DNA from: Branchiostoma floridae | Lineage: Eukaryota; Chordata; Leptocardii; Amphioxiformes; Branchiostomatidae | Assembly: GCF_000003815.2 (NCBI RefSeq) | Contig: NC_049995.1 | Coordinates: 15,978,931-16,042,930, forward strand | Length of the DNA stretch: 64,000 nucleotides | Reading direction: 5' to 3' | Shown here: in pieces, positions 32,301 to 38,300 of the stretch | Position numbering within the stretch: the stretch's first letter is position 1 | Layout of the letters: each line of letters opens with the position of its first letter | Translations under genes and position numbers: made by a program | The notes under the pieces: generated by a model | What the model saw: only the letters and a program-made list of their open reading frames with translations | Databases searched by the model: none | Told to the model about the DNA's origin: nothing

Positions 32301-35300
32301 CGGAAGGAATAAATGATATGTGAGATCGCGTGGCGTAATCGGCAGCGTGTTAGCCCAATAGGTCCCGGGTTGAAATCCGTCCATGTCACGGATCTTATGC
32401 CCTTGGGAAAGGCACTTCACACGGCTATCCTCACTCTACTCAGGTGAAAATGAGTACCTACATGTAGCTTCGGCTAGAGACGTCCCTGTTGTAGGACGTT
32501 AAATAAAGACTGTGCCATAATGATCAACATGATGATCGTGGGCACTTAAGAAAGGAAGGAAGAAAGAAAGAAAGAAAGAAAGAAAGAAAGAAAGAAAGAA
32601 AGAAAGAAAGAAAGAAAGAAAGAAAGAAAGAAAGAAAGAAAGAAAGAAAGAAAGAAAGAAAGAAAGAAAGAAAGAAAGAAAGAAACAAAGAAACAAAGAA
32701 AGAAAGAAAGAAAGAAAGAAACAAAGAAACAAAGAAACAAAGAAAGAAAACTTGTCTCTCACCTTCCGGACTGAAGTAGTAAGTGGTGAACATGATGTCG
32801 AAGTTCCCGTGTCCGGAAAAGTTAGTGCGCAGGTGCAGGGAGATGTTGCTCTTAGCGGAGATGAAGTCTCTGGACTTGGTGCAGACTTTTCGGTCGTAAG
32901 AAGCGAAGAAGTCACCGTAGTTGCCGTTATAGAGGGCCAGTCTGTTGTTGTTATTGTTGTTTATTTATTTGTAAATAAAAGAAACAAACAAACAAACAAA
33001 TACATAAATCATTTGAAAACAGCAGGGCAAAGTAACATGGAGACCAGAAACATGACTTTCTTCTCGTGATTCTTAAAAAAACTGAAATTATACCTAATGA
33101 TAAACAATTACTGTTAAATATGTTCATGCCAAAGCAAATGACATCAATGAAGGGAAAATCAGATCGTTGTAGATGTAGATATAGAATAGTTGCCATTATT
33201 GATGGCCATTCTGTTATTTATTTATTTTTTTTTAGAAATAAAAGGAACGAGCCATATATAGCCAGGTAAAGGAACATGCAAGGAAACTAGAACCCTGCCT
33301 TTATTCTGGGTCTTCCCAAAATTATACCTAATCATAAAAATATAATTAAATGTATACATGCATATGCGGATAATATCAAAGAAAAAACACATCGTTCTAG
33401 ATATACAAGAGTAGTTGCCGTTATTGGTGGCCAGTCTGTTGTGCGTTGTTTTTTTGCAAATAAAAGAAACAACCCATTGATAACAGGGAAAAGGAATATG
33501 CTAGGAGGCAGAACCCTGACTTTTTTCGTGGGAGAGGCAGACCGTTGTAGATATACAAGAAAATAAGAAAAATCAACGGAATACAGAAACCACGAGACCT
33601 GTTAGTGGTACAGCCCTTGAAGCTGGTGTTGCTCGGCGGAAGGATGTTCATAGCCATAAACAATAACGGATGATTATATGTATATATATATATATATATA
33701 TATATATATATATATATATATATATATATATATATATATATATATGTATTAGAAAAGACAGATCGTTACAGATATGCAAATTCATATAGAAACCATCTCA
33801 GCCTCCATAGCAGGCTCTCTTGGTTTTTTTTGTATTTTGTGTGCATATGCTACACTTTTGGTGGCCATTTGTTTTTGTACTGCCCGGTCGTTTGTGCCGC
33901 CGGCCAGAAGACAATCGACCCAGCACAAAAATGGGCAAAAAATGTATGGGAACTCCCCTACCCCAAAAAAGGACACAAAAAGGCCCTGCGAGTCAGCAAT
34001 GGAGGCTGAGATTGTTTTTATAGTCCGTTGATTTCTCTTATTTTCTTGCATATCTATAACGATCTGTCTTTTCTTTTTTGTTTGATATTGAACCCACCGA
34101 ACCTGTTGGTGGTACAGCCCTTGAAGCTGGTGTTGCTCGGAGGGAGGATGTTCATGGTTAGGAACTGTAGGACGATCTGTTCACAGACACACACACAGAC
34201 AGACAAACACGCTCTAAACAAACCTTCTGGCGAAGGTAATAAAAAGTAGCCACTAGACCTGTTGGTGGTACAGCCCTTGAAGCTGGTGTTACTCGGAGGG
34301 AGGATGTTCATAGCCATAAACTACAGGACGATCTTCTGTTCAGACACACACACACAGACACACGCATAAACACAGAAAAACACGCTCAAAACATAACCTT
34401 CTGGCAAAGGTAATAAAAAGTAGCCACTAGACCCGTTAGTGGTACATCCCTTGAAGCTGGTGTTACTCGGAGGGAGGATGTCCATGGCCTTAAACTGCAG
34501 GACGGTCTTCTGTTCACAGACACACACACACACACAGACAAACACGCTCCAAACATAGACTTCTGGCGAATGTAATAAATAGAATCCACCAGACCTGTTG
34601 GTGGTACAGCCCTTGAAGCTGGTGTTACTCGGGGGGAGGATGTTCATTTTCTTTGAACTGCAGGGCGATCACACACACAGACACACACACAGACACACAC
34701 GCTCCAAACATAACCTTCCGGCGAATCTAATAAAAAGTAGCCACTAGACCTGTTGGTGGTACATCCCTTGAAGCTGGTGTTGCTCGGCGGGAGGATGTCC
34801 ATAGTTAGGAACTGTAGGACGATCTGTTCACAGACACACACACAGACAAACACGCTCCAAACGTAAACCTTATGGCGAAGGTAATAAAAAATCTAAGCCA
34901 CTAGACCTGTTAGTGGAACAGCCCTTGAAGCTGGTGTTACTCAGAGGGAGGATGTTCATTTCCTTGAACTGCAGGACGATCACACACACAGACAACACGC
35001 TCAAAACGTAATCTTCTGACAGAGGTAATAAAAAGTAGCCACTAGACCTGTTGGTGGTACAGCCCTTGAAGCTGGTGTTACTCGGAGGGAGGATGTCCAT
35101 GGTTAGGAACTGCAGGACGATCTTCTGTTCACAGACACACACACAGACAGACAAACACGCTCAAAACATAATCTTCTGGCGAAGTTAATAAATAGAAAGC
35201 ACGAGACCTGTTGGTGGAACATCCCTTGAAGCTGGTGTTGCTCGGCGGGAGGAGGTTCATGGCCTTAGATTGCAGGACGGTCTTCTGTTCACAGACACAC

Positions 35301-38300
35301 ACACACACGGACAAATACGCTCCAAACATAACCTTCTGACAAAGGTAATAAATAGAAAGCACGAGACCTGTTGGTGGTGCATCCCTTGAAGCTGGTGTTA
35401 CTCGGCGGGAGGATGTCCATGGTTAGGAACTGCAGGACGATCTTCTGTTCAGGTTCCGCGCACAGGATGACGAAACAGTCGGCCCCGTCAGTGGGGCCCT
35501 CCCATTTGATGTGTCCGGTCTTTCCCAGGGTCACGGAATCCCCACAGTGGTCCTGTAGATGCACTGCATGGAGAAAAACATAAGCATCTCTTTGACACCT
35601 ACCCACCACCGAAAATTCAACACCACAGCATGTCCAGGTCCAAAGATATAATACAAAACGTGCTGCTGCAGTACCAAGGGCAACAAACAGGGGGTTCAAA
35701 TCGACCTTCATCATCACCAAACACCACCTACTAAAAACCATCGCAAACTATTCAAACGGTTCTTGAGCTATATAATATGTAACAACAAACACACACACAA
35801 CGTCCAGATAAAAAAACAGTGTGGCCAAAATAAGGTACCTTGTTTCCGGATGTTTGTGGTCAACATAAGTTAAGAAACTCTAGTTTGACCTGGCTAATTG
35901 AGAAAATAAGTTTATATACTTCATTATCTATGCAACATGTGTGGTCATCTAATGTGTCCGGTTTTACCCAGCGAGACTGAACCTCCACAGTCATCTTGCA
36001 GATTAACACCATATAGTCTGTCCAGTTCCCTGTCTGTTTGTTATCCCTATCTGCCTGCTTCCCTCTCTGCATGTCCTAGTATGCATGTCCAGGACAAAAG
36101 AAACAATAACAGGAGTTGCAGTGCTAAGGTCACACACCAGGGGGCGCAAAATTTACTTGGACCTTCATGTTCCCAATTCCTCCTGCCCACATACCAAATA
36201 TCATTGATATCACAATTCATACAGTGGTTCTTAAGTTATGCTGACCACAGATATCAGGAGACAGAAAGACTGACGGACAGACTTTCCATTGGTATTTCAT
36301 TTAGTTATGTAAATAAGTTATTAAAATTACATGGTCCATTGTTTATGGAAAGTGGTTTTGATACATATTACATTTTGGTACATCCTACTGATACATTTGT
36401 TTATGCAAATTAGGTCCCATTGTTTATGGAATGTGATTTTCCATTGCCATTGGTACATAGTACATTTTGATACATCCTCCTAAAAACTGACAGACCAAAA
36501 TAATACCGAATTTTCCCAGTGGCAAACGTGGTCTTGACTAGAAACATATCTAGCGCCTGTAAATGTCTTGTTTTTTCTTGTCTTAAAAAAACTGACCCTG
36601 CGGTTCCAGAGCTTCTGTTGACAAATTCCCATGATTTTGGCTAGACAAATTGATTTGCAAAGGTGCTATTTAGTGCAAATATTTGCTGGCCTGGATGCAA
36701 AGTAAGTAAGCCAAGTAACTGATTTTGTTATTTTAGTAAATCTTTCATAATACACCAAAATGTCGCTTATGTAATACCGTACTTAAGTTTCATATCGACC
36801 TACTTTTTTTCTTTATAGATAGATTAGCTTGTTTGAATCGAATTGTATATCCTAGGGCTAGTTGCAGATACATGTAACATAGATATAAGTATGGTAGATA
36901 TAATGAAATCCGTCTTGCTATGTTATACTACATTCTGGGATATACGTCAAGCTAGTTTTGAAGGGTTTACTTTGACAATGTGTTTTCTTTTGGGGGCAGT
37001 TGAAGACAAATTTACATGTACTCACTTCTTGTATGATGTGTGGATTCACTAATTTTGATAGTAGAATTATTTTTTCATTGTCAGAAATAATGGGAAAGAT
37101 TGTATTTTGGACACGTTAGTAAATTATTGCAAATGGTTTGTTATATCATCATGAAAGGAGCAGCTAACGAGTCAAAGTTAATTCCACAACGATTGCATCA
37201 GGTACAATGTATGGCAAGTACCCCTTACCTGTATTACTAACTGTATTACTACAGTTAAAACTATTATATTTTCTTTTCTTCATTTTAAGAAATGGTATCT
37301 ATCTTCAATATTGTGTTTGCAGGATGGACACAATCTCCTTTCAACTGGCATATTTTTGTGATGACCCTTTAACATGAAACGACATTTCGTTGAAGAGGTT
37401 CATCAGTCACGTATGTTTAACATGCATTGGCATAATACCGGTCATAAGCCTTATACCGGTCGATTAAAAATAGTGGAACTTAAAGAGATCTAAACATGCA
37501 ACAATAGTTATTTCTGAGGTATGCACACTTCAGACATCTAGGTGTCCAATACATCATTTACAAAGCATCGATAACAATGCATTCGAAGACAACAAGGCCA
37601 AAAGTTTTCAGGTCATTTTCGGGGCAGGCGAGCTCGTCGTGGGACAAACACACTGTCACGTTCATCGCCAGATTTGTAGATAATAATCACATGTGCTCAC
37701 GGCACAAGACGAGCATGATTCAACAGCAATCTTGAATTTCTTTTGGTGACCTACAACTCGTGTAAAAGTGTGAGGAACCGTTGCATTATCGCCCGGATCT
37801 ACGGCTGAATGGGTCAAATTGAACGTACGCCGCCATTTTCCCGCCATTTTTAATGCTACGGCCAGCAGTAAAGTTTTACGTCATAGCGGTTGTGACGGGC
37901 CAAAATTAAATGAAAATTCTTGTCAGTATACGCCCATTTTCTCATGACTTTTTGTATGCTCATGCAGATTTTTGTTTTGTGCAACTACTAACAGGAAAGA
38001 AAGGAACAACAGAGGATGTATAAAGGTACATAGCGGCAGTTAATTGTGCCGTGTTTCGTTCGGCCGGTATAGTGCACCCCCTTCCAACCACGCGCCCGTT
38101 CTCCGTGCAATTCCGCGGTGTGTTCCAATTACGATATTATGTTTTTAGCAGGACCAGGGAGACAAAATAATTTACACAGAAGAAGTGGCAAAGGTAAGTT
38201 GTAACAGCAACATGTAACTGGAGAAAATGATGCGTTGATCATTTGCCAAATTAGCATTGCTTGAGAAATTGCAGTAAACCGACCGGTATTATGCCAATGG

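Follow-up and report, generated by a model that had tools for sequence, protein, structure and literature searches.

The array described here, which lies on the minus strand of a 64,000-nucleotide stretch of Branchiostoma floridae DNA (the window), is very probably a large 'mirage', i.e. a minisatellite generated by repeated tandem duplication across an exon–intron boundary, the copies of which would be removed together with the intron. Between positions 33598 and 35563, a 196-nt exon of a CUB-domain gene (exon A) is followed by nine copies of its own 3' part and donor, all of them inside its own intron. A repeat unit composed of exon 3' end, donor and intron start, with nine intronic copies, had already been proposed in a first-pass annotation of this DNA; the present analysis confirms this and locates all ten donors. 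The array is present as described, except that its last copy is set off by 504 nt that include an (AT)n tract and a fold-back, and duplication also occurred at other boundaries. The elements of the array are as follows.

35368..35563, minus strand: exon A, which encodes the 5' half of the CUB domain and gave rise to the array (unit c1); its donor reads CAG/GTCTCG, and its splice phases agree with those of the adjoining exons
33598..35367, minus strand: boundary array on the donor side, in which the 3' end of exon A recurs nine times within the intron, each time with a donor (self-comparison, TRF and donor alignment)
33660..34090, unstranded: (AT)n tract and fold-back separating the last two array copies (TRF, inverted self-match, fold z −17.08)

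The array was analysed in one haplotype, with the order and number of units as assembled. The first intronic bases of the ten donors lie at 35367 (real exon A), 35207, 35047, 34906, 34749, 34594, 34432, 34258, 34102 and 33598, and the donor-to-donor spacing along the array is 160, 160, 141, 157, 155, 162, 174, 156 and 504 nt. TRF reports the array as four overlapping rows with scores of 423–1390 and periods of 155, 160 and 320. The unit spans the exon–intron boundary as placed by the gene model, and its intron share amounts to about 75 nt in most copies, with a (GT)n tract at its end; the real exon stands at the edge of the array, while the copies lie within the adjacent intron. The motif AACAGGTCT occurs eight times in the 64-kb window (0.66 expected; none of 100 shuffles reached eight), and all eight occurrences coincide with array donors, the remaining two donors reading AACGGGTCT and AACAGGTTC. 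Splice signals are thus retained in many, though not all, copies. The earlier claim that every copy has the same donor, preceded by a GT-rich acceptor-like region, requires qualification: GT is found at the donor position of all nine intronic copies, yet AACAGGTCT is found at eight of the ten donors, and a GT-rich tract ending in AACAG precedes six of the nine copies, while two have a GT tract that does not end in this AG and the last has the (AT)n tract instead. The coding sense had been noted as still legible in most copies; a 17-residue CUB segment is exact in three intronic copies and bears one change in four and three changes in two. Upstream of this segment, one intronic copy contains an in-frame stop and another a 1-nt insertion that shifts the frame, and the far-upstream part of the last copy is not alignable.

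Exon A belongs to a minus-strand gene model of six exons, in which the splice phases agree and which, at the level of the model, yields an uninterrupted ORF of 291 aa, with a signal peptide, a CUB domain, an LDLa domain, a transmembrane (TM) segment and a tail, in this order. The other five exons are given below.

42089..42173, minus strand: first coding exon with the start codon, signal-peptide-like (gene model; signal peptide judged by eye)
32763..32941, minus strand: exon B, CUB domain 3' half (gene model)
31002..31148, minus strand: LDLa exon (gene model and NETO2 alignment; Pfam match below the cut-off)
28137..28234, minus strand: TM exon (gene model; TM segment from a hydrophobic stretch and the NETO2 alignment)
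26212..26382, minus strand: last coding exon, tail and stop (gene model)

The 291-aa protein is collinear with NETO2 (whole-sequence E 2.9e-11), the best stretch being residues 52–219, from the CUB domain to the TM segment (i-Evalue 1.1e-7). Searched alone against the PDB, the CUB half matched NETO2 at E 0.024 and others more weakly. Pfam matches remained below the cut-off: the LDLa domain in the 291-aa model, the CUB domain in a CUB-only query (E 0.03; absent from the whole-protein results at E up to 0.05), and, among 18 minus-strand stretches covering 26001–44000 in three frames with stops as X, a single LDLa match (E 0.0027). NETO receptors possess two CUB domains, an LDLa domain and one TM segment; the model shares with NETO2 the collinear CUB, LDLa and TM regions and differs in having a single CUB domain. 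Judged from these alignments, the predicted architecture is NETO-like with one CUB domain. Upstream of the first coding exon, at 42403–44809, diverged direct repeats with spacings from about 400 bp were also observed.

Duplication of exon–intron boundaries in this gene is not confined to the donor of exon A, as alignment revealed copies of five of its ten internal boundaries, in four of its five introns. The further copies, together with one from another gene, are listed below.

32942..33532, minus strand: acceptor-side array in the same intron as the exon A array, two extra copies of intron end, acceptor and exon B start (self-comparison)
35946..36006, minus strand: decayed copy of the exon A 5' end, situated in the intron before exon A (75.9% over 58 nt; tblastn E 4.8e-5)
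30677..30733, minus strand: 3' end of the LDLa exon with its donor, copied once into the intron that follows (89.7% identical to its source at 30992–31049)
27761..27809, minus strand: 3' end of the TM exon with its donor, copied once into the intron that follows (85.7% identical to its source at 28132–28180)
63238..63359, plus strand: acceptor-side copy, in another gene, of an EGF-like exon's 5' end (real exon starts at 63435, exon part of the copy at 63287, unit of about 150 bp)

The exon B start copies at 33187–33248 and 33411–33472 align to the real boundary and form a mutual repeat over 33114–33310 and 33346–33532, while for the exon A 5'-end copy about 200 nt of upstream intron can be aligned loosely. 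Both boundary types are represented, the donor type by exons A, LDLa and TM and the acceptor type by exons A and B and the EGF-like exon. The LDLa and TM copies can be aligned no further than the end of the exon plus a few bases of intron, a pattern not directly accounted for by simple tandem duplication. The EGF-like exon at 63435 was labelled by eye; Pfam EGF matched only at 62028–62396. Within the region 63238–63513, the partial acceptor-side copy continues into a 15-bp minisatellite that is similar to CAGGTGTGACTG in the exon. A 77-bp repeat at 22038 and 22416 was considered as an exon-bearing copy and discarded, as no exon was recognised in it by eye.

The frequency of such copies was estimated in a scan with fixed probes, which was run after the copies had been discovered. 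At a score of at least 42, four of ten CUB-gene boundaries were positive, compared with 22 of 519 control probes taken from the gene's other introns and none of 46 boundaries of a nearby discoidin gene, the introns of which are shorter (82–768 nt) and so offer less room for copies, and the X-exon acceptors of which were placed at the nearest AG and are hence approximate. When the array intron was included, about 10% of all control probes were positive; when it was removed, two of eight CUB-gene boundaries remained, against the same control figure. A score of 24 was obtained both for the acceptor copy of exon A and for one boundary with no known copy. The enrichment of copies at CUB-gene boundaries is thus modest. 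With half of the CUB-gene boundaries copied and none detected in the scan of the discoidin gene, these observations suggest that such duplication happens repeatedly, perhaps in a locus-dependent manner.

Several other features were recorded in the window. The discoidin gene (minus strand, 270–14809) consists of twelve two-exon discoidin-like units, some of them more than 90% alike in DNA, introns included, and a two-exon composite of these units matched Pfam F5/8 type C at E 1.5e-18; one discoidin first exon, recorded at 1425–1839, was recovered by translated search in two frames, with a break at about 1486, and its unit may carry a frameshift. Tandem repeats that have diverged from one another, their period being roughly 170–190 bp, lie at 17476–19830. 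Two tRNA-Trp genes lie in opposite orientation at 48918–48990 and 51219–51291, and six tRNA-Gln genes lie on the minus strand at 60018–61236 and 62650–62723, five with a CTG and one with a TTG anticodon, five of the six following each other at 271–294 bp. Five of the eight window proteins that were searched (four long ORFs and one at 15151–15498) returned nothing or only sub-threshold matches.

All ten exon A units are distinct, their exon parts differing pairwise by 4–20%. The nearest relatives of the real exon are c3 (p-distance 0.04), c5 (0.05) and c9 (0.08) when exon parts are compared, and c2 (0.11) when intron parts are compared. Among units c1–c8, the exon part from the ATG to the donor is less diverged than the intron part (0.077 versus 0.167, permutation p 0.018; p 0.022 with c1 left out), whereas no such contrast was seen with a longer exon part (p 0.20 and 0.25). 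At the sites that distinguish c2 from c3, the real exon has the c3 state at 12 of 14 exonic positions and the c2 state at all five positions within the first intron bases (Fisher p 0.0018); deeper in the intron the corresponding counts are two and three of five, and after thinning of adjacent sites the agreement stands at six of eight (exonic, c3) and four of four (intronic, c2). Incompatible site pairs are frequent, both between exon and intron (55/84) and within each (exon–exon 31/66, intron–intron 10/21). A run test for exchange over 41 polymorphic sites gave p 0.0023, and with informative sites alone none of 10,000 shuffles reached the observed value; counting a block of eight neighbouring sites once raised p to 0.078, and counting all adjacent sites once raised it to 0.17. 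Judging from these patterns, exchange among the copies and with the real exon is plausible, though not proven. The earlier proposal that the array is either young or homogenised with the real exon is weakly supported: the mosaic patterns fit exchange, but the exon parts are up to one-fifth different and the run test weakens once neighbouring sites are merged.

Divergence that is random with respect to codon position, which the first-pass annotation had regarded as speaking against its reading, could not be rejected: across the nine copies inside the intron, variation affects 10 of 24 third positions and 15 of 50 other positions (p 0.23), and the bias is likewise not significant with ten copies (p 0.14) or over the last 53 nt (p 0.16 for nine copies, 0.08 for ten). 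In the six other boundary copies pooled, the EGF copy included, 25 of 42 differences fall at third positions, which exceeds one third (p 0.0004) but not one half (p 0.14), the share expected when only the real exon is constrained, so that selection on the copies need not be invoked. The share varies among copies (exon A acceptor 11/16, EGF 5/7, TM 6/7, LDLa 1/4, exon B copies 0/3 and 2/5).

With respect to splicing, computed products indicate that the use of any of donors 2–10 leads to the same premature stop, yielding 119 aa instead of 291, and that the extension is out of frame in eight of nine cases. In six copies, pseudo-exons of 74 or 77 nt that start at the GT-rich acceptors also shift the frame in the computed products. 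The earlier statement that added copies would be out of frame holds for most later-donor extensions, but not for all combinations of an upstream AG with a donor, of which 14 of 50 are in frame and open; nine of these correspond to a 33-nt piece, one per intronic copy. When compared with the donor consensus, the exon A donor and its copies match at 4–6 of 9 positions and are the weakest in the gene (the other four donors match at 7–8), and donor choice is consequently not obvious from the sequence. The spliceosome is assumed to recognise exon A through the exon's own acceptor together with the closest donor, in which case splicing would be normal and the copies would leave with the intron. UG-binding repressors such as TDP-43 might help to silence the copies. 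As for the aberrant products that had earlier been raised as an alternative, accounts of lancelet mirages point to normal splicing (PMC3087553, PMC3902484).

The origin of the array may be envisaged as follows. In the first duplication, the (GT)n tract, which lies some 75 nt downstream of the donor, would have been fused with an exonic position some 80 nt upstream of it. Within the exon, the repeated segment is bounded on its inner side by CCTGAACAG, and the GT tract is followed by TCTGAACAG in one and TCTGTGAACAG in two of the three junctions printed; the junction contains a short microhomology, CTG, through which the first duplication may have arisen. The number of units could then have grown to ten by unequal exchange or by slippage during replication, perhaps partly in steps of two units, and the TRF period of 320 may reflect some such steps or be a simple multiple of the shorter period. 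Afterwards, the copies would have drifted, possibly with patchy exchange among themselves and with the real exon.

It is improbable that some copies are instead used in RNA, where the 33-nt piece, running from an AG after a pyrimidine-rich stretch to the donor, would add 11 residues, or the TM copy, by way of a suitably positioned AG, would replace the TM exon in frame. All nine of these pieces are in frame and open, and the version with the TM copy yields an open computed product of 276 aa, the differences of this copy being concentrated at third codon positions. Such an excess is no sign of use by itself, however, since the exon A acceptor and EGF copies have it and the LDLa and exon B copies do not; moreover, the recognition of a 33-nt exon with such weak donors seems unlikely, the alternative TM segment is short, and the upstream stop and frameshift affect two of the array copies.

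It is even less credible that the array constitutes a working store of variant exon ends which, by exchange or conversion, possibly also somatic, rewrite a few residues of the receptor CUB domain in a cassette-like manner. The copies do vary in two adjacent codons (LT, KA, KE and MA classes), and the agreement of the real exon with c3 in its exonic and with c2 in its first intronic sites would be expected if it had been converted; yet this contrast shrinks on thinning, the run test loses its strength when linked sites are merged, the codon-position bias is not significant, and open frames may reflect drift from a recent source. An assembly artefact, with haplotypes collapsed or expanded, also has very little probability. 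Copy number differed between two versions of the PGBD5 locus (PMC3902484), and the draft assembly of one globin array was called aberrant (PMC3087553), but all ten copies of the present array can be told apart (exon-part p-distance 0.04–0.20) and decayed single copies are found elsewhere in the gene. Repeated tandem duplication across the boundary thus remains the preferred reading of the array.

Repeats of this kind have already been published for lancelet genes, and the array is a large and instructive example of them, not a novel mechanism. Minisatellite-like duplications of intron–exon boundaries in lancelet globin genes, called 'mirages' after the Adh3 case, are described as involving both boundary types, with splice signals in many, but not all, copies; the BflGb6 mirage has units of 150–160 bp, six and three of them in two haplotypes, and RT-PCR suggests that splicing is normal despite the mirages (PMC3087553). 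A mirage with units of 60 and 108 bp and an unequal copy number in two versions of the locus was reported for PGBD5, where TnC is also cited (PMC3902484). Judged by its sequence, the exon A array fits this kind in the four features compared (unit across the boundary, real exon at the edge, splice signals in many copies, either boundary type). It resembles the lancelet mirages (Adh3, BflGb6/BflGb9, PGBD5, TnC), as these accounts present them, in its similar units, in the splice signals kept in many copies and in the occurrence of both boundary types, and it differs from them in having ten donor units, an acceptor-side array in the same intron and single copies at further boundaries of the gene. 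The CUB-gene locus thereby adds unit number, arrays at both ends of one intron and recurrence at other boundaries.

In the introns of amphioxus VCBP3, complete or partial exons, some with splice sites, were mentioned beside the coding exon as 'data not shown', and a VCBP3 cDNA with an extra downstream exon and a premature stop was recovered (PMC2632668), which indicates, as far as this account goes, that duplicated exons are not always silent. The CUB gene shares with VCBP3 the exon copies in introns next to a coding exon, while the passage on VCBP3 describes no array. Ten near-equal donors in one intron provide a natural test of splice-site choice. Arrays of this kind also offer a test of the published proposal that new introns originate from boundary duplications. 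In intron gain through internal tandem duplication (Rogers; Gao and Lynch; Zhuo et al., as cited in PMC3087553), the duplicated segment likewise includes splice sites; the copies described here differ in lying within an existing intron, with no sign of a new one.
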